IMG/VR virus record: IMGVR_UViG_3300021093_000382
Location: 1-22,888 of that record
Strand: one strand, 5' to 3'
DNA from: a virus
Length of the DNA stretch: 22,888 nucleotides
Shown here: positions 630-17,659 of the stretch, piece by piece
Position numbering within the stretch: the first letter of the stretch is position 1
Layout: the number at the start of each line of letters is the position of its first letter
Notes under the pieces: model-generated
Databases searched by the model: none
The model's input: only the letters and a program-made list of their open reading frames with translations
What the model was told of the DNA's origin: nothing
Program-made: the position numbers and the translations under genes

Positions 630-1118
630 ATGGCTGATTTATTAATGAAAATGCCCTTTCAGTACGAACCTAAAAGAAAAAATAGGTTTATATTGACATT
701 CCCATCTTCTTTGGGGATTAACTCGTGGTATGTTGAGTCAACCACAAGACCTAAAGTTACAATAAAAGATGTTGAGATTCCATTCTTAAACACTTCTACA
801 TATGTTGCGGGACGATTCAATTGGGAATCGATGGATGTTACCTTCCGTGATCCAATTGGACCATCGGCATCACAAGCTCTTATGGAGTGGGTTCGTTTAC
901 ACGCTGAATCAGTAACAGGACGTATGGGTTATGCTGCGGGTTACAAAAAAGACATTGACTTAGAAATGTTAGACCCAACGGGAGTTGCTGTCGAAAAATG
1001 GATTCTACAAGGAGTATTTTTAACTAGTGTTGATTTTGATTCATTAGGGTATAGTGAAGACGGACTTATTACAGTTAAAGCGTCACTTAGACCTGATAGA
1101 TGTATTTTAGTTTACTAA
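630..1118 (+). CDS. gp19: Tail tube protein (T4 gp19-like)
   Basis: The 162-aa product is almost the same length as T4 gp19 (163 aa) and has the same overall pattern. It opens with a short N-terminal arm, then RFILTFPSS. A central block (FNWESMDVTFRDPIG, residues about 62-76) is followed by the helix ASQALMEWVRLHAES and the strand LEMLDPTGVAVEKWILQGVFLTSVDF. This matches the contractile-tail tube fold, whose hexameric rings stack on the baseplate inside the sheath. No Shine-Dalgarno sequence precedes the ATG; the leader is A-rich. A TATAAATA element lies upstream and a hairpin terminator follows, so the gene may be an independently and strongly expressed late unit, as expected for an abundant virion protein. 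The sheath gene is not in the window and may lie further left. Family assignment is confident. Confidence 0.9.
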   Translation: MADLLMKMPFQYEPKRKNRFILTFPSSLGINSWYVESTTRPKVTIKDVEIPFLNTSTYVAGRFNWESMDVTFRDPIGPSASQALMEWVRLHAESVTGRMGYAAGYKKDIDLEMLDPTGVAVEKWILQGVFLTSVDFDSLGYSEDGLITVKASLRPDRCILVY

Positions 1119-1214: not shown

Positions 1215-1973
1215 ATGGATCAATCTACAATTTATGGACAACAAGATTTTAACTTACCACATGACGTAGTTAAATTACCCTCAAAGGGAATATTTTATAA
1301 ACCAAAAAAAGAATCTTTAAAGGTTGGTTATTTAACTGCCGCTGATGAAAACTTATTATTATCACAAAACACACCTAAAGACGGTTTAGTTACATCACTT
1401 CTAAGAAATAAAATTTATGAACCAGGATTTGACATTACTCAAATGATAGATGTTGATGTACAGGCAATATTATTGTATTTAAGGAACACTTCATTTGGAC
1501 CTGAATATAATTTTAGAATAACCGATCCCATAACCAACAAGGAATTTGAAGCGATTATAAAACTAGATGAGATTGATTATAAGACTGTTCAAAATTTACC
1601 AGACGCTAATGGACATTTTACTACTGTTTTACCTAAGACAAATAAAACAGTTGTTTGTAAATTATTAAATATAAAAGAAAATAATGAATTAGATGATTTA
1701 TCTAAAGGATATCCACAAGGAATGGTAGTACCTATTATAACAAAAAGACTTGAAAAACAAGTGGTTGAAATTGATGGGGAAACTGATAGATCAATAATAT
1801 CTACATTTATTAATCAAATGCCTATTTCTGATTCTAAACACCTTAGAAAATTTTTAAGAAACTCTGAACCAAAAATGGATTTAACAAGAATTGTAACAGC
1901 CCCGTCAGGAGAAAAAGTACCCGTTGAGGTAACTTTTGGGGTTGAGTTTTTTCGGCCTTTCTTTGAGTTATAA
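1215..1973 (+). CDS. gp26: gp26-like baseplate hub / tail assembly protein
   Basis: The 252-aa protein carries LPSKGIFYKPKKESLKVGYLTAADENLLLS near residues 21-50. This 'SKG.fY....l.v..lta.dE.ll' pattern is typical of the T4 baseplate protein family that includes gp26. T4 gp26 (about 208 aa) acts in assembly of the central hub. The gene lies between tail tube and tape measure, the place where many tailed phages encode tail assembly chaperones. The C-terminus is VEFFRPFFEL, encoded by TTT TTT CGG followed by more codons; this can be read as a +1 slippery site leading into the next small ORF. The single CGG stands out in an AT-rich genome that writes Arg mostly as AGA. The leader is A-rich with no Shine-Dalgarno. 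Family call is moderate; a hub subunit or a chaperone are both possible. Confidence 0.55.
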   Translation: MDQSTIYGQQDFNLPHDVVKLPSKGIFYKPKKESLKVGYLTAADENLLLSQNTPKDGLVTSLLRNKIYEPGFDITQMIDVDVQAILLYLRNTSFGPEYNFRITDPITNKEFEAIIKLDEIDYKTVQNLPDANGHFTTVLPKTNKTVVCKLLNIKENNELDDLSKGYPQGMVVPIITKRLEKQVVEIDGETDRSIISTFINQMPISDSKHLRKFLRNSEPKMDLTRIVTAPSGEKVPVEVTFGVEFFRPFFEL

Positions 1974-2137: not shown

Positions 2138-3955
2138 ATGTGGTTATTTGTAGAAAGTGGAGATAAAAATGCCGAAAATTTAGCGACTTCTCAGTCAACA
2201 ATAGAAAACTTAAACACAGCATACGAATCATTTAAACAAAATGTTGCTGGTGGAGACGTACTTACAGTTTTCAAAAATATAGAAAAAACAATGATTGGGA
2301 TGATGAACCAATCTATGGCACTACAAAGAGGTATGGGTGGTGTCATAAATAATACTGAAGAATTTCAAAATAGACTCAATAAAGCGTATAAATCAACTGT
2401 AAGTATTGGTGGAACTTTCACTGATGTTGTTGATGCGGTTGCTGGAATTTCAGATGGTATGGGTAAAGTTGTTAGTGTTAGTGACACTACAATTACCAAA
2501 ATGGTTGAACTATCTCAAGCAACACAAATGACAACAAAGGAGATTGGTGGTATGGTTGCGGAAATGGTAAGATTTGGGGGTACTCAATCTCAGGCAGTTG
2601 ATGCCATAAGTAAAATGGCTAAAGAAGGTAGACAAGCGGGATTGAGTGGTAAACAATATACAACTGAGATTGGGAAAAATATAAAAAATTTAAGTGGATT
2701 TGGTTTTAAAAGTGGTGTTGAGGGACTAAAAGGTATGGTTAAACAAGCCATGTTATTAAGGACTAATATTGAAGCTATTGGTGCTTTGAAAGTACAGGAT
2801 AGTGTTTTGGAACCTGAAGGTGCAATTGAATTAGCTGCAAATTTCCAAATGTTGGGAGGAGCCGTTGGTAAACTGGCAGATCCTTTTCAATTAATGTATA
2901 TGGCACAAAATGATATGGAAGGTTTACAAAAAGAACTTGTAAACTCAACTAAAGCTGCAATGACATTTAATAAAGAAACAGGTAACTTTGATATATCTAC
3001 CGAAGATATGTATAGGTTAAGACAACAAGCTAAACTTACAGGTGCAAACCTTGAAGATTTAGTTAATACAGGTAGAGAAGCTGCAAAATTAGATTATATC
3101 AAAGAAAAATTTGATTTAAGTGGTTTAGATGAAGAACAACAAAATTTAATTTCACAACTTGCAACTGTAGGGAAGGATGGTTCTTTAACTGTTGATATTC
3201 CTGGATATGGTGAAATAAAGGCTAACGATCAAAAAACATTAGATCAAATGTTAAAAGATGCTGATGTTAAAAAGGCGTTAGAGGATTACCAAAAAAACCA
3301 AGATAAATCTGATAGACAATTAGCAGAAGCATCGCTTACGGTGGCGGAAAGACAGGCAGCAACTCAAAATGAAATTAAAACGGCAGTTATTAATTCAATG
3401 AGTGACACTCAAAGAAAACAATTTGCTAAAGATATCGCAGATTCTAATAAAAACGTACAAACAAAAACAACTGAAGCCGCTACGACTGTAGGTGGAGCTT
3501 TAGTACCCGGATATACGGGTGCAGAATCAGCCCAAAAAACCGCCACTGAAAATATAAATTTAAAATTATCCGCAAGCAAAAGAGACGAAATAAATAGAGA
3601 ATTAGGTAAAATAGGTGATATGTTTTCTGCAACAACATTTGACTTAATTGTACCAAAAGGAGGTGCGCCAAAAGTAATGACAGAAAATGCTATTTATCAA
3701 GGTATTGTCGGTGATGAGGTTTTTATGGGAACAAATTTAAGCGACATTTTTAATGGTGTTAAAAATTTAGGTAATTCTGCCGGTGGAAATGTTAGTGGAA
3801 AAATGGATATAAATATAAACGTTTCAGGTGCGGTTAATGGCGATGGAGGTAACGTTGCGAAAATTTTTGAAAACCCACAAGTACAAAAACAAATAATGGA
3901 CACTGTATTGTATAAATTAGAATCGTACAAAAAACAACAAGGTGTAATAGCATAA
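2138..3955 (+). CDS. Tail tape measure protein (T4 gp29 counterpart by position and size)
   Basis: The 605-aa protein is mainly helical, rich in Ala, Gly, Met, Lys and Gln. It contains repeated amphipathic stretches such as MNQSMALQRGMGGV and ITKMVELSQATQMTTKEIGG, and Gly-rich breaks at residues about 165-290. The C-terminus has MDININVSGAVNGDGGN and a final helix. Tape measures line the tube lumen and set tail length. At about 1.5 angstrom per residue, 605 residues predict a tail near 90 nm, similar to T4, whose gp29 is 590 aa. An in-frame stop at 2126 rules out a longer N-terminus from an upstream ATG. It follows the gp26-like and small ORFs and precedes the baseplate genes, the usual order. 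I do not see a direct sequence match to gp29, so the call rests on composition, length and location. Confidence 0.7.
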   Translation: MWLFVESGDKNAENLATSQSTIENLNTAYESFKQNVAGGDVLTVFKNIEKTMIGMMNQSMALQRGMGGVINNTEEFQNRLNKAYKSTVSIGGTFTDVVDAVAGISDGMGKVVSVSDTTITKMVELSQATQMTTKEIGGMVAEMVRFGGTQSQAVDAISKMAKEGRQAGLSGKQYTTEIGKNIKNLSGFGFKSGVEGLKGMVKQAMLLRTNIEAIGALKVQDSVLEPEGAIELAANFQMLGGAVGKLADPFQLMYMAQNDMEGLQKELVNSTKAAMTFNKETGNFDISTEDMYRLRQQAKLTGANLEDLVNTGREAAKLDYIKEKFDLSGLDEEQQNLISQLATVGKDGSLTVDIPGYGEIKANDQKTLDQMLKDADVKKALEDYQKNQDKSDRQLAEASLTVAERQAATQNEIKTAVINSMSDTQRKQFAKDIADSNKNVQTKTTEAATTVGGALVPGYTGAESAQKTATENINLKLSASKRDEINRELGKIGDMFSATTFDLIVPKGGAPKVMTENAIYQGIVGDEVFMGTNLSDIFNGVKNLGNSAGGNVSGKMDININVSGAVNGDGGNVAKIFENPQVQKQIMDTVLYKLESYKKQQGVIA

Positions 3956-3995: not shown

Positions 3996-6900
3996 ATGGA
4001 GAGTCCTTTATCATTTAACTCAAGTGAAAATTTCAGAAAGAAATTACTTTTAAGAAATTTACCACCATATAAAGTTGAAAATGCGTTTTCAACGGGAGAT
4101 GTTCCTGGTGTCAATGATTTTGTAATATTGGATTATGCAATCATCGATTCTCCTAAAATAGAAGTTGTCGGAGACAAACAAGAAAAAACATTATTTACAA
4201 AAAATCAATATACCCCTGAAAATAAAACGTACTATGGTGACATGGTATTAATAAATTTAGATTTAGGTACAAAAACAAATGAAGGTGAGTATGGATATCC
4301 TGATAGTATTGGAAGTAGTTTAGAAAAAATAGGTGATAATCAAGAAACACTTCTTTATGTAAAAAATCTCTACGGACCTGTTGGATTAGGGACTAACTAC
4401 GGTGAAACCGTAACAATCAATAATACACTTCTATCAAATACAAATTTAGGAAATTATGGTTATCCATTAACTATTGGTAGTAAATTAGAAACCATAGGTG
4501 ATAATCAAGAAGTAATACATAAAGTAAGAAACGTTTATAAACCATTTGGTTTAGGTGATTTTGGAAGTTCTGTTTGGTACATTAATAATGATCAGAACAT
4601 ATTAACAATGGGTGATGGTGAATATACAATCACCGACACTTTAAATAGTTACCTATATCAAATTGGTAACACACAAGAGGTTTATCATAAAGTAAGAAAT
4701 CTTTATAAACCAACAACCCCTGAAGATTATGGTAATACCGTTTGGTATATAAATAACGATCAGACAATTCAAAGTATGGGGGGAGGCATCTACACAATAG
4801 ATGATACCATTAATAGTTACCTATATCAAATTGGTAATACACAAGAGATATACCATAAAGTAAGAAATATTTATAAACCATCTTCACCACAAGACTACGG
4901 TAATACTGTTTGGTATATAAATAACGATCAGACTATACAAACAAACGGTAGTGGAATATATGATATTGGTGACACAATTAATAGTAATTTATTTCAAATA
5001 GGTAATAATCAAGAAGTAATTCATAAAGTAAGAAATGTTTATAAACCCGGATCGCCTTTAGATTATGGTAATACAGTTTGGTATATAAATAATGATCAGT
5101 CTTTACAAACAAATGGTAGTGGAATATATGATATTTCAGATACCATTAATAGTTACTTATATTTAATTGGTAATTCTCAAGAAACCCAATTAATTACAAA
5201 AAATAAGTATACACCTGAAAATAGTACTCAATACGGAGAACCAAGATACAATATAAATAATATTCTAACTTTAGGTTCAAATGAGGGAGAATACACATAT
5301 GCTGACACGATTAACAGTGATTTATATACTGAAGGTGTTTATGATAGACCATTGTTAATTGCTATTAATCAATACGGTCCACAAAACATTACAAACGGTT
5401 CAGTAGACATTAATCAAAATTTACAAACAAACTCAAATGAAGGAGAATACGGCTATCCTGACAGTATTAACAGTCCTTTAGAAAATATAAGTGAAATAAA
5501 AGAAAACGATGCTTATGTTATTAACAAATATGTAACTGGTAGCGGAACTTACGGTAATCCCGAACTTGTAACAATTGACGATTTAGAAATACCAAACACA
5601 GGATTACCTTATGCTAATTCTGATAATACCTTTATATTTTTACCGTCTTCATATAGTCCTGTGAGTATTTTATTAAGTAACAACCCTTCAGGTTCCGATG
5701 GTTCACTATCACAAGATTCTGCATTGGCTAACTTGGCTGCAAAACAATTACAAAAAGAATTTAAACATAGAGTAGCATTAGAATTATTACAACAAACATT
5801 AGGAAGAATTAATGTACTCGATTCAAGTATAAACCCAGATACAGGACAAGTTTCCGTTGAACCAAACTTAGACCCGTTTAATGCTATTGGGTTACTATCA
5901 GGACAAGTACCAATTATTGCAAGAAATCATGCAATTACAAATCCTGATTTATTCTTAGGACAAGCAATTAATTTTGCTGCTAAACTTGCAGGTACTTATT
6001 CGCCATATTCATATATTCCTGGTGAGTACTTTGATTATCCTGACAAAAAAGGTTCCGCAATATATAATAATCCTCTATCTGCTATTGGGGGGGCTATAGG
6101 TTCAATATTTCGTGCAATCCAACCTAAAAATCAAACAGCATCTGAATTGTTTGTTGAATACACTTCAGTTGCAACAAGAGACTTATTATATGATCAGTTA
6201 AGATTTAACAACTTTAGACCTGATTATAAAATTGGTAAAAATTTATTAGCACCAAAAGGTAAATATTATATTGGAAATAGAAAATCTTCTATCAATGAAA
6301 TAGTTTCACCTGATGGTGAATTATCTGAAAGTAAAATAAAAGGAGTTGCAACAGATGGTAGTCCTGTTTTTTCTTATGGTAAAATTGGTGAAGAATATGA
6401 AGGTACAAAAATAAGTAATCTATATGCAGGATTAAATACTCGTCCTTATTTTGACGGTTTAAACGGAGTACAAGCAGGATTTACTTGGTTATCTAAAGAC
6501 GGTAAGGGTGGACAAAATTGGATGATACCTGGAGACTTTGCAGGACCAGGAGCATCTGTATTTACAGACAGCAGCGAATTCAATTTCTCAAATATAAGTT
6601 CAACATATGATCCAACAAAATCAACAAATTATGAATTTACTGAAAATTCAATTTTAGATGTTACTCAAAAATTAATTGATGCGGGTAATCGTTCTAATAA
6701 TAAATTACAACACGTTGGTAATGCAATTAATCAGGTATCAAAAGTTTTTAATGACGGTTACATTGAATTAACAAAGGGTTCAAGAGTTGTTAGATACACA
6801 ACAAAAACTTCTTTACCTGAAAGTGAAAGAACTGCAGTACCTACAGGTTATGAATATTGTCGTGTTTTTACAAAAGACAGACCATACTACTCATTTGATG

Positions 6901-9900
6901 AATTACAAAAAACAGATGGGATAACAACAGAAGGTAGAAAGTTTACAAATTCAATATTCGATAAAACTTATAATTTAAATATTGCTCCTTGGCAAAACCC
7001 TGGATCAACAAATATTCAAAACAATAAAGTTAAAAAGTATATGTTCTCATTAGAAAATTTATCATGGAGAACGTCAAACAGACCTGGATATACTTATGAA
7101 GATTTGCCTGATTGTGAAAGAGGACCTAACGGTGGTAGAATAATGTGGTTTCCTCCATATGATTTAAGTTTTGATGAATCAATTAATACTAATTGGACTG
7201 ATAATACTTTTTTAGGTAGACCTGAACCAATATATACATATAACAATACAAGTAGAAAAGGGAACATAAGTTGGAAAATTGTTGTCGATCACCCATCAAT
7301 AATGAACGTCATATTAGATAGGGAGTTAGAAAATGCGACACCCGACTCTCAAATAACTAAAGTTTTGGATTCGTTTTTTGCTGGATGTACTAAGTACGAT
7401 TTATACGACTTAGTAAAAAAATATCCAATGTTTACACCAAACGACGTATTTGAAGTTTTAGAAGAAATCATATATCCCGAAGATATTGTAACGGTTGTTG
7501 AAAATTTACCAAATGAGAATGTAGAAAATTTTACAGAAAACAATGATATAATTCCACCTACACCTACACCTACCGCAACACCAACACCTACACCAACAGG
7601 GACAGGTGGAATTGTTAGTACTGAACCACCTGAACCTGAAGATTTTAATTTTAAAGAACCATTATTCTTTTTCCACAATGACTTTCCTGATCCAAATAGT
7701 TCAAAGATAACCGCATCAAAACCATATGATCAGTGGTTAGCAGATTATTTGGCGTTAGAAACTAAATACTTAGAGACAGGTGGTAGTGATGGTACTAGAA
7801 ATTTTGGAAAGGCTAGAGATAAAATTATTAAATATAATGACGCATCTTATGTTGATTACACTAATTTTATAGTTAATGGAAGTGCAGAATTAAAACAAAA
7901 ATATTTAGATTCATATATTGATACAAGAAAAACATCTGTATCTGAATTTTTTGAATACATGCAAACGGAGTTTGAAGAAATAAAACAGTTTTTAAAAGAA
8001 GTTTGTACTGCGATAAAACAAGGTGGAAAGATTACATTCACCTTAAAATCTTCAGCGTCTGCAGTTACCAATACAGGATATAATTTAACACTTTCAAAAA
8101 GAAGAATAGATGCTGCTTTAAAATACATTTCAAATTTTGAATTTGATGGTGTTAAACTAAAAAATGAATTAAATAAAAATCTAATAGTTAAACAAGTTCC
8201 TGAAGGTGAAACTACAAGTATTTTAGATCCAAAATACAAATTTATTCAATGCAATAAAGATTTTAAAAGTAACAGTAACGAAGGTACAGTTTCAGTAAAC
8301 GCTATGGCATGTAGAAGAGTTAGGATTTTAGATGTAAAACATGAAGCACCACCAGCGAAGCCAGTTGATCAACCACCACCAAACACTGAAGAATCTAACC
8401 CATTAGAGGGCAGAACATTTACTGAACCTGAAGAAGAAACAGGAACGGGAACCACAGTTAATACTGGAACAACTAAAACTGATCCACCTGGATACACAAC
8501 TACTAGACAAAAACAGGATCCGATAGTAAAAAGAACCAATAAACCTAGATCGGATTTAACTAAAAGATTAGCAAGAAAACTATTAACAGAGTGTAATTAT
8601 TTTGAGTTGGTTAAACAAAGAGACCCAATGATTTATGATGGATTAAAAAGTAAATTAAAACATTTTCATCCTGTTTTCCATTCAATAACCCCTGAAGGAT
8701 TAAATGCTAGACTTACGTTTTTACAACAATGTATGAGACCTGGAGACACCATCCCTACGGTTTCAAAAGATGGTGAAAACTTTACATTAGTTTATAATGA
8801 TGTAACTAATAGTGTGTTTGGTGCTCCACCTGTGTGTGTTTTGAGAATTGGTGACTTCTTCCATACAAAAATAGTAATTGATTCATTAAGTATAAAATAT
8901 GAAGACGGAAGATTTGATATTAATCCTGAAGGAATTGGTGTACAACCAATGATTGCCGATGTTAGTGTTTCATTTAACTTTATTGGTGGACATGGTTTAG
9001 CTGGCCCTGTTGCAAAATTACAAAACGCACTTTCTTTTAATTATTATGCAAATACTGAAATTTACGACGAAAGAGCCGATGCGACTGAAGATAACGAAAC
9101 ATTGGCAAAATACGATGCTGAAATTTTAAAAGACATAAAAAATCAACTTGGTATTCAAGACGATCTTAATAAACAAAGAACAAATGATGCTGGAGATACT
9201 ATCGGTGTTATAAAAACAAATGATTATGATTTAACAACTCAAAAAGCTTATGGTACCATTTCATATCAAGAGATAATGAAGAAAATGGCGGACGATAATA
9301 AATCTTACGCTGACGCTGTCATAGGTAATTTAGAAAAAATAAATGATAACTTTCTATTAGGGGGGCTTTTAATATCAACCAAAGATAGAAAATACACCGA
9401 AGGATTGTTTGATTATTTGACAGGAAACACAGCAAATGATGCGTACATATACGGTAAAACAGACACCATTCAAAATAGAATAAAACTATTAGTTGATAAA
9501 GCTAAACAAGATATTGATGACGGAAGTTGTCCATTATTACCTGAAGTACAATATCAAAATTTTTCAGACTCTGATATAAGAAAAGTTAAAAAAGAACTTA
9601 AAAAACTAATAGAAAAAAGAGGTAATGATATGTTGGCATTACTTGAAAACTGTAATTCAACTATAGCTAATGAAGAATTAAAAATGATTTTTACAATTGA
9701 TAAGTTAAATTTTGTTACAAGTAAAAATGATGGTTATATTGCTAAAAATGGTAGTGTTGTTATGTATAGTTTAAGTGGAGGGACTGGTGTTGATCCATCA
9801 AGTGGGGGTGTTACTGATACTTATTCAGAATTGGTACAAGACTTTTTAAAAATACGTTCAGATTTAAATGAGTATAATAATAAATTATATGAAAATAAAA

Positions 9901-10388
9901 TTATAGCGTCAGGAGATACCGAAGAATTTAATAATGAATTTGTATTTAACACATTTATAGAAAGTGATCCATCACTTACTTCACCGGCAGAAAATAGATT
10001 TTTTATGTTATTTGGTAAAGATATCGCGGTTGATGCTGAAGGGTTTAGTAATACTTTAATCGATGAGGCTTTAAAAAACGCAGAGGTACAAGAAAAAGAA
10101 AATTGGAAATTTTATCTCGGAGAACAATTCTACGTAAAAGATGTTGGATTAGTTGATAATTACAATAAATCAAAGAAAATTGTAGATGATAGGATTAAAT
10201 CATTCAAGGATAACTTTTACACAAATAAATATAACACATATAACCCATATAACAAAAGTAAAACTAGAATACTTAATTATGAAACACAAAATCCGATTAT
10301 ACCACCAAACGACACTAATTTAAAAGATGTGTGGTCGGATCAAAATTCAGAATGGAATAAATTTAATTTGAAAAAAACATTTAATTAA
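3996..10388 (+). CDS. Giant baseplate structural protein with tandem repeats and OmpA-like domain (2130 aa)
   Basis: The 2130-aa protein is modular. Residues 58 to about 548 hold nine repeats of 52-56 aa (core YGNTVWYINNDQ). Residues about 572-680 form a helical, then mixed domain ending in SYIPGEYFDYPD. Residues about 1016-1105 have a tail-protein-like block (GGRIMWFPPYDLSFDES, then RPEPIYTYNNTSRKGNISW). Residues 1187-1205 are a Thr/Pro linker. Residues 1223-1445 look like an OmpA-family peptidoglycan-binding domain. Residues about 1609-1690 form another block (PVCVLRIGDFFHTKIVIDSL, then FDINPEGIGVQPMIADVSVS) that looks like a second tail-tube/hub-type fold. The rest, to 2130, is mainly helical. 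It lies between the tape measure and a gp53-like gene, so a baseplate or baseplate-tube-junction role is likely. No single T4 protein matches; it may combine several baseplate functions. Location in the virion is inferred. Confidence 0.75.
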   Translation: MESPLSFNSSENFRKKLLLRNLPPYKVENAFSTGDVPGVNDFVILDYAIIDSPKIEVVGDKQEKTLFTKNQYTPENKTYYGDMVLINLDLGTKTNEGEYGYPDSIGSSLEKIGDNQETLLYVKNLYGPVGLGTNYGETVTINNTLLSNTNLGNYGYPLTIGSKLETIGDNQEVIHKVRNVYKPFGLGDFGSSVWYINNDQNILTMGDGEYTITDTLNSYLYQIGNTQEVYHKVRNLYKPTTPEDYGNTVWYINNDQTIQSMGGGIYTIDDTINSYLYQIGNTQEIYHKVRNIYKPSSPQDYGNTVWYINNDQTIQTNGSGIYDIGDTINSNLFQIGNNQEVIHKVRNVYKPGSPLDYGNTVWYINNDQSLQTNGSGIYDISDTINSYLYLIGNSQETQLITKNKYTPENSTQYGEPRYNINNILTLGSNEGEYTYADTINSDLYTEGVYDRPLLIAINQYGPQNITNGSVDINQNLQTNSNEGEYGYPDSINSPLENISEIKENDAYVINKYVTGSGTYGNPELVTIDDLEIPNTGLPYANSDNTFIFLPSSYSPVSILLSNNPSGSDGSLSQDSALANLAAKQLQKEFKHRVALELLQQTLGRINVLDSSINPDTGQVSVEPNLDPFNAIGLLSGQVPIIARNHAITNPDLFLGQAINFAAKLAGTYSPYSYIPGEYFDYPDKKGSAIYNNPLSAIGGAIGSIFRAIQPKNQTASELFVEYTSVATRDLLYDQLRFNNFRPDYKIGKNLLAPKGKYYIGNRKSSINEIVSPDGELSESKIKGVATDGSPVFSYGKIGEEYEGTKISNLYAGLNTRPYFDGLNGVQAGFTWLSKDGKGGQNWMIPGDFAGPGASVFTDSSEFNFSNISSTYDPTKSTNYEFTENSILDVTQKLIDAGNRSNNKLQHVGNAINQVSKVFNDGYIELTKGSRVVRYTTKTSLPESERTAVPTGYEYCRVFTKDRPYYSFDELQKTDGITTEGRKFTNSIFDKTYNLNIAPWQNPGSTNIQNNKVKKYMFSLENLSWRTSNRPGYTYEDLPDCERGPNGGRIMWFPPYDLSFDESINTNWTDNTFLGRPEPIYTYNNTSRKGNISWKIVVDHPSIMNVILDRELENATPDSQITKVLDSFFAGCTKYDLYDLVKKYPMFTPNDVFEVLEEIIYPEDIVTVVENLPNENVENFTENNDIIPPTPTPTATPTPTPTGTGGIVSTEPPEPEDFNFKEPLFFFHNDFPDPNSSKITASKPYDQWLADYLALETKYLETGGSDGTRNFGKARDKIIKYNDASYVDYTNFIVNGSAELKQKYLDSYIDTRKTSVSEFFEYMQTEFEEIKQFLKEVCTAIKQGGKITFTLKSSASAVTNTGYNLTLSKRRIDAALKYISNFEFDGVKLKNELNKNLIVKQVPEGETTSILDPKYKFIQCNKDFKSNSNEGTVSVNAMACRRVRILDVKHEAPPAKPVDQPPPNTEESNPLEGRTFTEPEEETGTGTTVNTGTTKTDPPGYTTTRQKQDPIVKRTNKPRSDLTKRLARKLLTECNYFELVKQRDPMIYDGLKSKLKHFHPVFHSITPEGLNARLTFLQQCMRPGDTIPTVSKDGENFTLVYNDVTNSVFGAPPVCVLRIGDFFHTKIVIDSLSIKYEDGRFDINPEGIGVQPMIADVSVSFNFIGGHGLAGPVAKLQNALSFNYYANTEIYDERADATEDNETLAKYDAEILKDIKNQLGIQDDLNKQRTNDAGDTIGVIKTNDYDLTTQKAYGTISYQEIMKKMADDNKSYADAVIGNLEKINDNFLLGGLLISTKDRKYTEGLFDYLTGNTANDAYIYGKTDTIQNRIKLLVDKAKQDIDDGSCPLLPEVQYQNFSDSDIRKVKKELKKLIEKRGNDMLALLENCNSTIANEELKMIFTIDKLNFVTSKNDGYIAKNGSVVMYSLSGGTGVDPSSGGVTDTYSELVQDFLKIRSDLNEYNNKLYENKIIASGDTEEFNNEFVFNTFIESDPSLTSPAENRFFMLFGKDIAVDAEGFSNTLIDEALKNAEVQEKENWKFYLGEQFYVKDVGLVDNYNKSKKIVDDRIKSFKDNFYTNKYNTYNPYNKSKTRILNYETQNPIIPPNDTNLKDVWSDQNSEWNKFNLKKTFN
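4167..5642 (+). repeat. Nine in-frame tandem repeats of 52-56 codons
   Basis: Units begin at 4167, 4329, 4494, 4662, 4830, 4998, 5166, 5331 and 5487. Successive spacings are 162, 165, 168, 168, 168, 168, 165 and 156 bases. Each unit starts like IGNTQE and continues (V/I)xxKVRNxYKP, YGNTVWYINNDQ, GxYxIxDTINSYL. The central four or five copies are very similar in DNA as well as protein, while the outer ones are degenerate. This suggests recent copying in the middle of an older array. The pattern looks beta-rich, as in fibre or shaft segments. Confidence 0.9.
7662..8330 (+). other. OmpA-like peptidoglycan-binding domain inside the 2130-aa protein
   Basis: Residues 1223-1445 open with LFFFHNDFPDPNS, like the start of OmpA C-terminal domains ('lyFdnd.Pdp'). 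The core is ITFTLKSSASAVTNTGYNLTLSKRRIDAALKYI. The YNxxLSxRR piece (Y1362, N1363, R1369, R1370) lines up residue for residue with YNISLGERR of E. coli Pal. The end ACRRVRIL (R1440, R1441) matches the NRRV-type final strand. A helical insertion separates the first strand from the core, as I recall for some Bacteroidota OmpA proteins. The predicted role is binding the peptide part of peptidoglycan. Confidence 0.7.
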
Positions 10389-10389
10389 A

Positions 10390-10707
10390 ATGCAATATTA
10401 CGACAGATACCAAAATTTTCTAATAAATGGTAAACAAACAGTAGTACCATTTTTAAATTTACCTCCAAGATCAACGGATCAGAGATATGTTTTTAGAAGA
10501 AATCAAAGTAGACTTGATAAAATAAGTTATGAAAAATACGGTGCACCATATTTTGGTTGGTTAATAATGATGGCAAATCCTCTTTATGGTGGTTTAGAAA
10601 CGAATATACCTGACGGAACCATTTTAGTTATACCTTTTCCGCTAGTTGCGGCACTGCAAGACTACAAATCTGCATTGGATACACATATTTTTTATTATGG
10701 CAGATAA
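10390..10707 (+). CDS. gp53: Baseplate wedge protein, gp53/LysM-like
   Basis: The 105-aa protein has RLDKISYEKYGAPYFGWLIMMANPLYG (residues about 41-67), close to the 'LexIAxxxYGxxxYwwxIxxaN' pattern of LysM-type tail proteins and of T4 gp53. The following IPDGTILVIPFPL matches the closing strand of those domains. T4 gp53 is a wedge component that helps join wedges around the hub; it is longer (about 196 aa), so this is a minimal version. It starts 1 base after the stop of the 2130-aa gene, and its last 11 bases overlap the next gene's chosen ATG, which suggests translational coupling across the three baseplate genes. A P2 gpX-like tail protein is the main alternative. Confidence 0.65.
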   Translation: MQYYDRYQNFLINGKQTVVPFLNLPPRSTDQRYVFRRNQSRLDKISYEKYGAPYFGWLIMMANPLYGGLETNIPDGTILVIPFPLVAALQDYKSALDTHIFYYGR

Positions 10708-13700
10708 AAGACTAAAACAAACAAAAAAAATATACGTCGAAACAGAGTATGATAACATTATCGTTGTAAACCCTAATGAGATTTATGATGCTAATAACTT
10801 ACGTGCGCCAAGACTTGTTGATCATGAAGATTTAGTTTACTACGCTAATTTAGAAACATTTATAATCCCAAGAACAAAATTAGCTATAGGTGAAACATTT
10901 GACTCACCTGTTGTAAACACCACAATTGCCACTGTATTTGGTGGGGAAGAAGATTTAAAAATTAATTTTTTAAAACCAAAAGGTAAAACGGCTTTTGATA
11001 CAAGTTGGTCTGACCAGTTAACAGGATTTGAGTCAAGATTAGGTAAGGGAGCAAATCAAAAAACTGAAGAAGTTGTAACAATTGATGGTAAACCTAGATT
11101 CAAAAATTCCGTAGCAAAGTATGAAGATACTCAGATGTTGGGAATAAAATCTATTAGGGTTAACATAAAAGGAACGGGAGTCCCTGAAGTTAATATTGAA
11201 ATGACAGATATTCAAGGAAGGGCTCTTTTTGAACAAGGAGAAAATTCAATATACTCTGCCTTTTTTAATTTTCCTTATCCTTTATTTTATTTAACACTAA
11301 AAGGGTATTATGGTAAAGCTATTAGGTATAGATTATCATTATTATCTTTTAATGCTAGATTTGACGCAAACACTGGTAACTATGATATCAGTTTAAAACT
11401 TGTTGGTAAATTTACGGCACTTTTATTTGACACACCTTTACAGTATGCGGTTACCGCACCTAAAATGTATAACACAGAAATTACTTATAAAAATAATAAC
11501 AATACTACTGTACAAACAATTAACACATATAAGGGTAGACAAAAACTTGACGAGGTTTATGAGATTTATAAAAGAAAAGGATTAATACCGCAAGATTTTC
11601 CACCATTATCGATAGATGAATTTAAACAAAGAGTTGATGGATATACTACAAAATTATTAAAAGACGCTTCAGATAAAGGAGACTTCACACAATTAAATGA
11701 TATACAAGATTATAGAGAGTCACTATTTGGTTTAAGAAAAAGTGTTTATACCAACTCTTTAGAAAAATTCATAGATAAAAGTAGTTTTTACGTTAGCGGA
11801 AATCAAAAATTAATTTATTACCCTTTTAAGAAAGATATACAAGATCAAACAAAAGAAGATTATAAAACAAAAATTAATGAAAGAATAAAATATTATATAG
11901 AAAAATTAAACAATAATAAAACCTTTGGTAAAGGAGGTAAAAGAGAAATACCATTAAAAATAAAAGATAAAAATGACGTATTAAAAAAATTAGATTTTGA
12001 GGCGTGGATAAATAATGATGAGGATTTAAAAAATACATTTTTTTATAGATTTAACAAACCTGTTGATTTAACTACGGAAAATGGCGTCAAAGAGTTCGAA
12101 AAGTTTAAATTAGATGAAGATAAAAATAAACTTTTAAAAGAAAAAGTTTTAAATGAAAAGGGTGAGTGGGTTGAAGACAATGTAACATATTTTGTTTTTG
12201 GTGATAAGATAGTATCAGACGCTACATATGTACCTAATAGTTTTTTAGATGATATTGACGATGCTGAAAAAACTTTAAATACTAATGAAGAAGAGATAGA
12301 AAAAATATTATCACAAGTATTGGCTGATAGAGCCCTTAAAAATCCTCAGCAAGGGGGGTTAGGGTTTAAACCTACAATAAGAAATATTTTTGCAATTATT
12401 TTTGCAGGTGCCGATGCCTTTTATAGATTAATGGAGGATGTACATGAATCTGCTTGGGATGTAAGAGACGAACCTGCAAGATTATTAGCGGTAATACCAC
12501 CTGAAAAAAACTTTTCTGTCGACGCATTAAGAACTTTACAAACCTCTAGTGGTGAATTAAATAAAGACAATGTTGTGTATCCTTGGCCTTTATACTTTGT
12601 TAAAGAAAAACAAAAAGATCAAAGAGAAGTTTATACAATACAATATCCAGGGGATGCTAAAGTAATACAACAAACAAAAGGATACGATTACAGGTTATGG
12701 CCGGAAATTGGGTTTGTTGAGGCTTATTTAAAAGGTACTGTAGAAACATCAAAACCTGTTAGTGCAAATGTATACAATAACCCATCGGATTATAGTAAGT
12801 ATGTTTCCGCTAATGCCATCGAGTTCCCATTCAAAACAAAACCATACCAAGACTTAGTTGCAATACCTTTTTTTTATGAATTATTTGAAAGATCTTACCT
12901 ATCGTCATACTATACAAAATTTATTGGAGACGAAATATCAAAAAAACAAATAGATAAATTTTACGGTAATATTGAAAGTAGAAACATTGAAAATTCAATA
13001 GGAAATAATATTGAGTTAAATCAAATATTAAAAAATTATAAGTTTGATTACAATAGTTTTATATCATATCTTAAAAAGATATCAAACAATGGTAATGGTG
13101 AAAGTTGGCAAACATATATTAGAAGTAAATATAAGACAGAATATATTGATAATTTATTAAAAACAACAAATGACATATACAGTATAGATACTATTTCTAA
13201 TAGAAGTATTAAAATTTCTTCTGATTTGGAATTGGCTAAAAACCTAAAAGAATTTTTAGAAAGTACCGATTCATCTAAATTAAGTTTTTTAGATACTTAC
13301 CCATTTACTGATTTAAATTGGATAACAGGTAATACCTCAAATGGTAATTCAGTTGGAAACTTAGAACAATTTAATGACACGACTAAAACTTTTATTTATT
13401 TAGACGATAAAAAAACAATTGCAAGAATTAATGAAACCGAGAAATACAAAAAATTATCTCTTTTAAGTGATTTTAGGATTTTAGAAACCGCAAATCAACC
13501 ATACGTTTCAACAACAAACGCACAGATTAATAATCCTACCGTTCTTAAAAGCTTCTACAATAATAGAAAAATAAAAGATTTTTACCCAACTGAAAGTTAT
13601 GTTGATTATGGTAATTCATATTCTGGTAATCTTGGAACACAAATACAGACTACATCTTTATTAAATACCCCATATTTTATTAATGCCTTAATAAAAGGTG

Positions 13701-16700
13701 TTGATGATAATAAAACAAAAACAGATAACGCATTTACAACGTTAGGGTATTTATTTTTGAATTCATTACCATTAATAACGACTAAAGAAAAAATTAAATC
13801 TATTGATAATGGTTCATATACAGATTTAGATTATTTAGCGTCAACACTAAAAAAATACTCGTCAATACACCAAGTACCATATGCATGGGTTTTAAAGTAT
13901 GGTTCTATTTGGCATAGATACAAAAAATTTGTAAATGAAAATGTTGATATTTTAGATTCCGTTTGGAAAGATTTTGATTATGTGGGGGCGTATGATCCCG
14001 TAACATCAGCAACAACATTACAATATGTTATACCGGATTATAGCGGTAATAACCAAACGGTAGTTTTACAAAAAACTGAAAATTTCCCATTACCTTCAGT
14101 ACAATCCAAAGATTATCTTGGTACGGGGTTTTATCCAAAAGTTATTAATGCTGTTTATAACTTTGTAACAGAAAAAGATTTATTTACTGGATACACAACA
14201 ACTAATTTTCAAAATGCTTATAATAATGCAAATTTTAGATTAGGTAAAAATAATCAATCAAGTACATACTTAAACTTTGGGTTTGATACTTCAAATGTTG
14301 ATAGATCTTTACAAAAAACAAATTACTATAATTATGTAGAGTTGAGTGGATTAACACAACAATATATGATGTTGTTTCCATCTATGGGGGGTATACCTAT
14401 CGATCAATCAATTTATGAATGTGTAAATTCAAACAATAATTTAACTAAAGAATTATTTAATAATAAATCAGTTTATAATGGATCCGTTAGAAGTTTATGG
14501 TCAGCATCACACTTTGGGTATTTTGATAATTCTTTATTAAAAAAACCTGCACCGACACAATACTTAAAGTCGATAAAATTAAATACTGATGAACAAACAC
14601 CATTTGATTTAAAATCGGCACAATCAGAGTACGCCTCAATAGAGGAAATATTTTCAATTTTTACACCTGAAATGTTAGATAAATTCGAAGAACAGTTTAT
14701 TGGTTTTTGTAACTATAAACCACTATCAAAAAATCTAATATTAAAAGATGAAATCATTGATCCTTCTTATACTTCATCTAATAAAGTGGCAAACTCTGAA
14801 CAAAAAAGATTATATTCACAATTATTAAATTTATTTTTAGTAAATAAAACAGGTATTACTTTTGTAAACGAAGATGTTGATGGTAAGGCTTTAGGACAAA
14901 AACAAATGATAACTTTTAACTCATCTTTGAAAGAGTTTTTAAGTTTTGATTGTGTTTTAAAATTAGGAAATCCTGGAAATTTTGATAGAAGACTTTTTAA
15001 TTCTTTTTCTAATATTAAAGAATTTGTCCCCGAATTTGATAAATATGAATTTAAACCATACGTAAAAGGAACTTTACCCGGTGATGGAACTAATGTCACA
15101 CTTTTACAAAGCGTAACACAAAACCAAAACGCTTGGAACGCACTTAGAACATATTTGGGATTCTCATCAATACCTGGTGTAGATTATCCAGGACAACCAA
15201 GCCCAATATTTCCTTCGGTTACACCAACACCTACACCAACTTCCACAACCGCAGCGACATCAAATATAAGCATACCACTATCAACACATTACACTTTTCA
15301 GAGTTGTTGTAATTCAAATGAAATATTCAATGTTGTAATACCAAGTAATGTTTCACTTGGTTTAATTTCAAATGTTCTTGGTACTGGTACAACTTATGTT
15401 GAGGGTGAGGTTTATTATATAGAGGCTTTTGAATCATTTAACTCTTATCCTTATAATTTTTGTGCTAGAAAAATTGCGAATACAACAACATTTAGCCCAC
15501 CAAACCAATCGCAAACACTCTTTTTAATTAAAACGTATACATTGGATTATGATGAATATCCATACCCAAATGATACAAACGCCGCTGTTAAATGTATAAC
15601 ATATAAAATACCTAGCCAAAATTGTTTACAACTATCACAAACACAACAAAATCAAACGCCACAACAACAATTACCCGCAAATCAACCACAACCTATTGTA
15701 CCATTATCAGGAACACCAAAATCAACCGTGGCTGATTTCTTTATTGATAATGATATTGAGTTCACTGCGGATAATGTAAAATTGACATACCCGTTAATAA
15801 GATTATACTCACAGAAAAAATTACAGGATTCAAACTTAAATAAACAAACTTTTACAACATTAATAAATGATTTTTTAAATAGCCAAAAATCAATACAAGA
15901 AAAAATACTGAACCAAACATTTTTAAATTTAAATAAAAATTTAAGTAATATAACAGTTAATAATACCACAACAAATACCGTTACGGGGGATGTCGGAAAA
16001 TTAACACTATATAATACTCTTAAGGCTTTTAACGATAAATGGATTGCAGGTTCAGATTTAAAATACGTAACATTGTTTGAGGACTTTTTATTTATGGATA
16101 GGGCTAATAGTGATATTGGTGATACATATGTTGTGGATGTAGAAAAAGTTGTAAAAAGAATGGATACCACTAATAATCCTGATATGAACTTAATGTCATT
16201 GGTTAGTAACATTTTAAGTGATAATCAGTTTATGTTTTTTGCAATGCCAGCATATATAAACTTTTATGGTATACAATCTGCAGTTAGAAACGGGCAACCA
16301 ATAGATATAGAAATCCCTAACTCGATGTTTGGTACATACTTGGAAGTTGATTATACAAAATCAAGCCCTAAATTTTTATGTTTATATATGGGGAATCCTT
16401 CAGAATACCCAAAACCAAAAGAAAATTCATTTATAAGATTTGACGATGATAGTTTCGATTTAAGAATGCCTGATAATCCATTAAGGGTTTCTGACCCTAA
16501 CAGGGATTACTCTAAAACAAATAAGGTTGTAGGATTTAGCGTCGACTTTGGTATTCAGAACCAAAATATGTTTAAAAACTTAGATTTAGATATGTCTGAA
16601 ATGAAAAACACTTCAGAATCTTTTAAAGTTTTTGCAGACATTGGGGGGTCTGTTTCTGGTGACAAAGTAGCGCAACAATCAGTATCAATGTATAGTATTT

Positions 16701-17659
16701 ATAAATCAAGATCTTATAGTTGTGGTGTTGAGTCTATGGGTAATGCTATGATACAACCAACAATGTATTTTGTTTTAAGACATGTACCATTGTTTTATGG
16801 ACCATATTGGATTTACGAAGTTAATCATAATATTTCTGAAAATGGATTTACAACTAAATTTAAAGGAACAAGAATACCTAAATACAGTTTACCAAATGTT
16901 GATAATTTGTTAATTAACGTCAATGAAAAAATATTACAATCATATAAAGAAAAAATAAAGAAAACAAAAACCGATAAGGAAATAAAAGATGAGAGATTAG
17001 TTAATACTGATCCAACAATAACAATAACAAAAACAGGATTAGATAAATGTAAAGAAGTAACAAAATACACTACATTACCTTTTGTCGAGGTTAAACGAAC
17101 ACCGATTACCTTAGAAGAAATATTACCAATTATAAAATCATCAACAACGGATGTAAGATTAAGAACTTTATTATTGGTTATTGCTATAACAAGACCTGTT
17201 AACTCCTACGATAAAGATTTATCGCAAATAACCCCAATAAATAATAATTTTTATGAAATTTCAACAGAAACAAAACATAATGGTAGTTTAGATACATATT
17301 TAACTGAACAAACATGTGTTGATGTTGCTGGAACATCTAGAGTTTTTGCAAGCTTTACAGGAAACACAACTAGTAGTAATTTTATGGTTTCTTTTTATCA
17401 ATCAATGATACCATTAATTGAATCGTTAAAGACATTAAATGTAGATACAAATGAGTATAAACAATATGGTAAATCTTTAGCTCAATTATGTTTAACAACT
17501 TGGGACACCGCAGTTGCTTTTGGTCCTCCACCATTAAGTGCTGAACAAATAAAAAATGAAATAACAACAACAACTAATAGTGGTGTAATTAATACCTATA
17601 ATATTTATGTTAAGCTATTTACAGAATATTATGAATATTTTGTACTTAATCCTAATTAA
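10697..17659 (+). CDS. Giant baseplate hub-like structural protein (2320 aa)
   Basis: I chose the ATG at 10697 (MADKRLKQTKKIYVETEYDN). The in-frame ATG at 10646 would overlap the gp53-like gene by 62 bases and add an unlikely Cys/His/Trp-rich leader. Visible parts: residues about 139-255, a hub-like fold (PEVNIEMTDIQGRALFE, FFNFPYPLFYLTLKGYYGKA); about 547-690, a conserved-looking segment with NIFAIIFAGADAFYRLMEDV and YPWPLYFV; about 1060-1085, VPYAWVLKYGSIWHRYKKF; about 1509-1520, a Thr/Pro linker; about 1525-1645, a Cys-containing insert; about 1944-2065, a second hub-like domain (RSYSCGVESMGNAMIQPTMY, then VPLFYGPYWIYEVNHNIS) resembling gp27/gpD-type endings; about 2135-2320, a C-terminal domain with NNNFYEIS. 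Very large for a T4-type hub protein; it may merge hub, wedge and cell-wall functions. The exact role is inferred from position and fold-like patterns. Confidence 0.7.
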   Translation: MADKRLKQTKKIYVETEYDNIIVVNPNEIYDANNLRAPRLVDHEDLVYYANLETFIIPRTKLAIGETFDSPVVNTTIATVFGGEEDLKINFLKPKGKTAFDTSWSDQLTGFESRLGKGANQKTEEVVTIDGKPRFKNSVAKYEDTQMLGIKSIRVNIKGTGVPEVNIEMTDIQGRALFEQGENSIYSAFFNFPYPLFYLTLKGYYGKAIRYRLSLLSFNARFDANTGNYDISLKLVGKFTALLFDTPLQYAVTAPKMYNTEITYKNNNNTTVQTINTYKGRQKLDEVYEIYKRKGLIPQDFPPLSIDEFKQRVDGYTTKLLKDASDKGDFTQLNDIQDYRESLFGLRKSVYTNSLEKFIDKSSFYVSGNQKLIYYPFKKDIQDQTKEDYKTKINERIKYYIEKLNNNKTFGKGGKREIPLKIKDKNDVLKKLDFEAWINNDEDLKNTFFYRFNKPVDLTTENGVKEFEKFKLDEDKNKLLKEKVLNEKGEWVEDNVTYFVFGDKIVSDATYVPNSFLDDIDDAEKTLNTNEEEIEKILSQVLADRALKNPQQGGLGFKPTIRNIFAIIFAGADAFYRLMEDVHESAWDVRDEPARLLAVIPPEKNFSVDALRTLQTSSGELNKDNVVYPWPLYFVKEKQKDQREVYTIQYPGDAKVIQQTKGYDYRLWPEIGFVEAYLKGTVETSKPVSANVYNNPSDYSKYVSANAIEFPFKTKPYQDLVAIPFFYELFERSYLSSYYTKFIGDEISKKQIDKFYGNIESRNIENSIGNNIELNQILKNYKFDYNSFISYLKKISNNGNGESWQTYIRSKYKTEYIDNLLKTTNDIYSIDTISNRSIKISSDLELAKNLKEFLESTDSSKLSFLDTYPFTDLNWITGNTSNGNSVGNLEQFNDTTKTFIYLDDKKTIARINETEKYKKLSLLSDFRILETANQPYVSTTNAQINNPTVLKSFYNNRKIKDFYPTESYVDYGNSYSGNLGTQIQTTSLLNTPYFINALIKGVDDNKTKTDNAFTTLGYLFLNSLPLITTKEKIKSIDNGSYTDLDYLASTLKKYSSIHQVPYAWVLKYGSIWHRYKKFVNENVDILDSVWKDFDYVGAYDPVTSATTLQYVIPDYSGNNQTVVLQKTENFPLPSVQSKDYLGTGFYPKVINAVYNFVTEKDLFTGYTTTNFQNAYNNANFRLGKNNQSSTYLNFGFDTSNVDRSLQKTNYYNYVELSGLTQQYMMLFPSMGGIPIDQSIYECVNSNNNLTKELFNNKSVYNGSVRSLWSASHFGYFDNSLLKKPAPTQYLKSIKLNTDEQTPFDLKSAQSEYASIEEIFSIFTPEMLDKFEEQFIGFCNYKPLSKNLILKDEIIDPSYTSSNKVANSEQKRLYSQLLNLFLVNKTGITFVNEDVDGKALGQKQMITFNSSLKEFLSFDCVLKLGNPGNFDRRLFNSFSNIKEFVPEFDKYEFKPYVKGTLPGDGTNVTLLQSVTQNQNAWNALRTYLGFSSIPGVDYPGQPSPIFPSVTPTPTPTSTTAATSNISIPLSTHYTFQSCCNSNEIFNVVIPSNVSLGLISNVLGTGTTYVEGEVYYIEAFESFNSYPYNFCARKIANTTTFSPPNQSQTLFLIKTYTLDYDEYPYPNDTNAAVKCITYKIPSQNCLQLSQTQQNQTPQQQLPANQPQPIVPLSGTPKSTVADFFIDNDIEFTADNVKLTYPLIRLYSQKKLQDSNLNKQTFTTLINDFLNSQKSIQEKILNQTFLNLNKNLSNITVNNTTTNTVTGDVGKLTLYNTLKAFNDKWIAGSDLKYVTLFEDFLFMDRANSDIGDTYVVDVEKVVKRMDTTNNPDMNLMSLVSNILSDNQFMFFAMPAYINFYGIQSAVRNGQPIDIEIPNSMFGTYLEVDYTKSSPKFLCLYMGNPSEYPKPKENSFIRFDDDSFDLRMPDNPLRVSDPNRDYSKTNKVVGFSVDFGIQNQNMFKNLDLDMSEMKNTSESFKVFADIGGSVSGDKVAQQSVSMYSIYKSRSYSCGVESMGNAMIQPTMYFVLRHVPLFYGPYWIYEVNHNISENGFTTKFKGTRIPKYSLPNVDNLLINVNEKILQSYKEKIKKTKTDKEIKDERLVNTDPTITITKTGLDKCKEVTKYTTLPFVEVKRTPITLEEILPIIKSSTTDVRLRTLLLVIAITRPVNSYDKDLSQITPINNNFYEISTETKHNGSLDTYLTEQTCVDVAGTSRVFASFTGNTTSSNFMVSFYQSMIPLIESLKTLNVDTNEYKQYGKSLAQLCLTTWDTAVAFGPPPLSAEQIKNEITTTTNSGVINTYNIYVKLFTEYYEYFVLNPN

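Follow-up and report, generated by a model that had tools for sequence, protein, structure and literature searches.

An OmpA-like domain with an altered pocket in a large baseplate protein of uncultured phages, a possible wall-docking module

Introduction

Domains of the OmpA/Pal/MotB type (PF00691) sit in bacterial envelope proteins, whereas the viral DNA analysed here (IMG/VR record IMGVR_UViG_3300021093_000382, the whole stretch of 22,888 nucleotides being called the window) carries such a domain within a phage baseplate protein. This raises the question of how the domain came there and whether it still serves to bind the cell wall. A first-pass annotation of the sequence had viewed it as a Pal-like peptidoglycan-binding domain captured from a host. 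All the features described below lie on the forward (+) strand.

Identification of the domain

The ORF 3996..10388 encodes a protein of 2130 aa that combines a tail-tube-cap-like core, N-terminal repeats and an inserted OmpA-like domain, as indicated by the reading frame, synteny with gp035 of phage immuto and a profile match of the core. Profile and structure-model matches place the OmpA-like domain at residues 1216-1453 (7641..8354). The span first proposed for it (7662-8330) proved exact to the residue, with the landmarks where they had been put: LFFFHNDFPDPNS at residues 1223-1235, YNLTLSKRR at 1362-1370 and CRRVRIL at 1439-1445.

Taken singly, the match of the window protein to PF00691 is weak (E 0.006 at residues 1319-1384 of the whole protein and E 0.0012 for the isolated domain, both below the Pfam gathering score and covering positions 2-70 of 98). 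Relatives of the domain, 3 from a single-sequence search and 52 from an alignment search, all come from uncultured viral contigs. PF00691 is matched by 21 of 27 diverse relatives (best E 9.5e-7), one of which (L030) exceeds the cut-off. Searched against the PDB, the profile of the domain family retrieves 36 sequences at E<=1, including 33 of OmpA type, and all 25 sequences found at E<0.1 are of this type; they comprise chains of OmpA, Pal, OprF, PorE and YfiB, the best at E 2.9e-6. The OmpA profile match expected from the first reading of the sequence is thus found at the level of the family.

The AlphaFold2 model of the window domain (pLDDT 93.4, pTM 0.90) shows the element order beta-alpha-beta-alpha-beta-(alpha)-beta, which is that of OmpA, so that the predicted fold includes the beta-alpha-beta-alpha-beta-beta topology that had been anticipated. 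Its best matches in the PDB by Foldseek are OmpA-type domains, and the structural matches include domains of OmpA, Pal, PorE and TagL as well as the Pal-TolB and YfiB-YfiR complexes. VIA-align gives Z scores up to 10.0, Pal 4g4v superposing with rmsd 2.5 over 111 residues. On their own, scores in the 8-10 range count as moderate, but nearly all the entries listed belong to the OmpA family and span the model. A chance match or an artefact is ruled out by the profile, the fold and the near-universality of the domain in relatives. As family profile matches, model and structural matches agree, the predicted OmpA-fold identity of residues 1216-1453 can be considered secure, unlike what the single weak PF00691 match would allow.

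Tail context and insertion of the domain

The window encodes successively a gp19-like tail tube protein (630..1118; phrog_4542, E 2.4e-25), a baseplate hub protein of the T4_baseplate family (1215..1973; PF12322, 2.7e-6; phrog_150, 7.8e-13), a probable tape measure protein (2138..3955; synteny with immuto gp037, no family match), the 2130-aa protein and a gp53-like baseplate wedge subunit (10390..10707; phrog_7145, 1.6e-4, also matched by immuto gp034 at 1.1e-10). This order is that of Flavobacterium phage immuto (sheath, tube, hub, tape measure, gp035, gp53-like protein, VanY-peptidase protein), the nearest cultured relative according to UvsX (41% identity). A very large protein (~2320 aa; 10697..17659) then occupies the place of the immuto hub gp033. 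This assignment comes from synteny only: the product matches no Pfam or PHROG family, and homology with gp033 was not retained, as the hhalign comparison is not significant. Of the 12 large contigs of relatives, all 12 have a contractile sheath match (2 above the curated cut-off) and 7 encode a gp23 capsid. Tail gene context, synteny with immuto and sheath matches together bear out the initial view of the carrier as a baseplate protein of a contractile phage. The sheath ORFs of the large contigs (L005, L013, L031, L036 and others) reach 1066-1194 aa, compared with ~709 aa in immuto.

The N-terminal part of the 2130-aa protein carries tandem repeats of ~56 residues (168-nt period, 3.2 clean copies, window 4644-5183), flanked by diverged copies within residues ~60-540. 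Their copy number appears to change, since occupancy differs among relatives.

The conserved core is made of two segments. Within the N-side half (residues 881-1150; 6636..7445), residues 1043-1109 match immuto gp035 (hhalign E 7.7e-8), which is also the sole match in the six-frame translation of the immuto genome (E 5.6e-6). The C-side half (residues ~1515-1700; 8538..9095) is collinear with gp035 (hhalign E 0.0094, not significant alone) and is present in 116 of 120 proteins, some of which are ended by contig edges. The gap between the two segments is of ~18 residues in gp035 and ~494 in the window protein. The OmpA domain is absent from gp035 and from all 52 immuto-type relatives, as well as from Microcystis phage Mel-JY01 and a 484-kb uncultured phage that both have the same core. 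As gp035 has this core without the domain, the latter would be an insertion into a tail-tube-cap-like protein. A core half folded alone yields a poor model (pLDDT 48), which the splitting of the core by the insertion may explain.

The label tail-tube-cap-like is probable and rests mainly on gene place: the window gene and that of gp035 directly follow the tape measure gene, as gene 48 follows gene 29 in T4. Moreover, phrog_230 (baseplate tail tube cap) is matched by 1 of 25 immuto-type members (E 0.0013); direct comparison with T4 gp48 is not significant.

By composition, the domain is bordered by an N-side linker that includes PTPTPTATPTPTPTGTG (7443..7640) and a C-side linker with many P and T residues (8355..8537). 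In relatives, the linkers have median lengths of 59 and 45 residues and are rich in disorder-promoting residues, which suggests that the OmpA domain is mobile on flexible tethers.

Distribution, origin and probable host

A scan using the C-side core, with the OmpA domain left out of the query, identified 597 contigs carrying this core. Eighty of them were examined and 68 were parsed by a strict motif. Among the matches listed, the profile detects the OmpA domain in 66 of the 68 parsed proteins, with E 6.7e-14 at worst; in the two exceptions (L094 and L132), a diverged segment takes its place. Judged from these contigs, the domain marks one diverse phage clade, in which it is ancient and nearly universal.

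In cultured phages, tblastn did not find the domain in 50,697 records, although the UvsX positive control worked. BFVD holds a few annotated phage OmpA proteins, for example in Cellulophaga phage phi17:2, and these are weak matches only. Two scans of genome contigs with short patterns, which distant sources could escape, returned no bacterial relative, and no relative was found in plasmids; a close bacterial source was therefore rejected. These results, together with the ancestral position of the domain in a diverse clade, leave the recent capture from a host proposed at first unsupported. The open-access literature that was searched gave no earlier account of a phage baseplate with an OmpA-like domain. 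Outside the baseplate gene, the 115-kb contig L135 (the contig of L039) has two more OmpA-domain ORFs (123-1301 and 1797-2717), both with an N-terminus of the WNINEDEKNRILNLHESAT type; one exceeds the Pfam cut-off and has the pocket SSAS...YNMDLSKKRA, again without Asp.

Upstream of 268 distinct starts in the contigs of relatives, a Shine-Dalgarno-like tetramer occurs once, against an expectation of 2.7 in shuffled sequences, and positions -13 to -7 are enriched in A. This pattern is close to that described for Bacteroidota (PMC6847099). Starts without Shine-Dalgarno and nearest cultured UvsX proteins from Flavobacterium phages make a Bacteroidota host likely for the clade, in agreement with the first-pass annotation.

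Residues of the pocket

Binding of diaminopimelate (DAP) by OmpA domains needs the motif TD(x)7NxxLSxxRA, in which Asp, Asn and Arg are the most critical (PMC5104382), and wall binding by TagL requires the Asn, Leu and Arg of the motif (PMC8253398). The pocket was compared in 72 non-redundant domain sequences (<90% identity). At the canonical DAP-contacting Asp position, the window protein has Ser1355 (8058..8060), and the 72 sequences have Ser in 62 cases, Asn in 7 and Asp in none; when the family profile is aligned with OprF, the Ser falls on the Asp with no gaps. The Asp of the GHTD pocket of Pal and OmpA is thus missing, an absence overlooked at first. As an acidic stand-in, Asp1229, located in the loop after strand 1, was considered and discarded, because it is kept in just 54 of 72 and provides no general compensation. 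The NxxLSxRR motif (8082..8105) is retained, Asn1363, Leu1366, Ser1367 and Arg1370 being kept in 71, 70, 66 and 71 of the 72 sequences, respectively. As Asn and Arg are conserved despite a mean column identity of 36% across the domain, the pocket probably still functions somehow in most lineages; as the Asp is lost, its role would differ from that in Pal.

These data bear directly on the possibility that the domain is a canonical Pal-like one binding the meso-DAP of the host wall. The fold and the NxxLSxRR motif agree with it, but the Asp that holds the amine of DAP is missing in 72 of 72 relatives, and Tp0624 of Treponema pallidum, where Asp is changed to Ala and Arg is kept, does not bind DAP (PMC5104382). 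Pal-like peptidoglycan binding is therefore unsupported as originally stated, and this alternative seems improbable.

Two cysteine residues of the domain, Cys1419 and Cys1439 (8250..8312), are invariant (72/72) and by position could form a disulfide closing the last loop; such a candidate disulfide would be in keeping with a domain that acts outside the cell or in the periplasm. The pocket motif is erased, and the remainder of the protein retained, in at least four separate lineages (L079, L093, L094 and L132). In L076, an in-frame tandem duplication of NPTSNSSLSKRRIESVK occurs at the pocket helix; it may be an assembly error or real.

Proposed role

Taken as a whole, the origin and role of the domain can be viewed as follows. 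The ancestor of a large uncultured T4-like clade, probably of Bacteroidota phages, would long ago have acquired an OmpA-fold domain in a loop of its tail-tube-cap-like baseplate protein. Hung on two probably flexible linkers, this domain would serve for docking, without catalysis. Once the tail is through the outer membrane, the domain would most likely use the retained Asn/Arg side of the OmpA pocket to bind murein, either the layer itself or the stem peptides. As the Asp that reads the free amine of DAP is replaced, the ligand, or its state, would be unlike that of Pal. The fold, the insertion, the tail context and the residue pattern are computed, and we infer the host phylum, the exposure and the flexible tethering. 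Gripping of the wall after outer-membrane crossing, as suggested from the outset, is accordingly kept as a possible role only, and we hold the complete scheme as our best guess, with a probability slightly short of even.

In favour of wall docking, the pocket Asn, Leu and Arg persist in 70-71 of 72 sequences of a fast-evolving domain, and the OmpA fold, the tail context, the insertion, the 66/68 presence, the disorder-rich linkers and the two invariant Cys all fit, as does a difference in VanY between the sister phage and 12 contigs of the OmpA clade (see below). Against it stand the loss of Asp in all relatives, the precedent of Tp0624, the lineages with an erased pocket in an otherwise kept protein and the fact that peptidoglycan-binding folds of baseplates can be structural, as is the LysM of A-1(L) gp16 and T4 gp53 (PMC10966104).

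This last point leads to the main rival of docking, according to which the OmpA fold would help to assemble or brace the baseplate, like LysM in gp53, murein binding having been lost. This explanation, less probable than docking but a serious one, accounts for the Asp lost in 72/72 and for the erasure of the pocket in at least four lineages that retain the domain or its segment, and has the LysM precedent (PMC10966104). It fits less well with pocket Asn and Arg being among the most conserved residues, or with linkers that are long and probably flexible on either side of the domain, which would be unusual for a rigid brace. Instead of murein, the partner might also be a protein of the host envelope, as OmpA-type domains bind proteins too (Pal-TolB and YfiB-YfiR); no such partner is known, and the conserved residues belong to a small-ligand pocket motif, which makes this doubtful, to about the same degree as canonical binding.

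Returning to docking on the wall, a bolder version can be formulated. The gp033 protein of the sister phage immuto, in hub position, bears a VanY peptidase domain (L151, 6554-9370), whereas VanY was found in 0 of 12 contigs of the OmpA clade; this comparison of one phage with twelve fragments is only suggestive. The Ser-variant pocket might be a distinct murein reader, for example of cross-linked DAP, that docks on the intact wall and replaces the hub peptidase. We consider this version unlikely, if marginally less so than canonical DAP binding.

In any case, a bacterial wall-anchoring fold is here associated with the tails of abundant phages, a group in which no cultured member was found. If wall binding is true, contractile tails would include a non-enzymatic step of murein engagement, and the Asp-to-Ser exchange would offer a direct handle on the ligand specificity of OmpA domains. 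If not, the domain would join LysM as a second example of a fold for wall binding that has become part of the baseplate structure.

Comparison with known systems

Immuto gp035 has a homologous core at the same place after the tape measure, without the OmpA domain. The tail tube cap gp48 of T4, also devoid of this domain, is linked to the window protein by gene place and the one phrog_230 match. LysM, found in T4 gp53, cyanophage A-1(L) gp16 and the LysM protein of PLTS/eCIS, is likewise a peptidoglycan-binding fold on a baseplate component, but it is unrelated to OmpA, and that of A-1(L) is packed between wedge, sheath initiator and tube initiator (PMC10966104). Domain 3 of Tp0624 resembles the window domain (VIA Z 7.4, rmsd 3.6 over 118 residues with the model) in having an OmpA fold that retains the Arg but not the Asp; however, Tp0624 is a bacterial envelope protein in which Asn is also lost, whereas the phage domain keeps it. 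With PF00691 domains, including those of PorE and of TagL/TssL of the T6SS, the phage domain has in common the fold, the order of strands and helices and the NxxLSxRR motif, and it differs from them by a larger insert after strand 1, the replaced Asp and the two invariant Cys. Among these domains, that of TagL, like that of the phage baseplate protein, serves a contractile machine.
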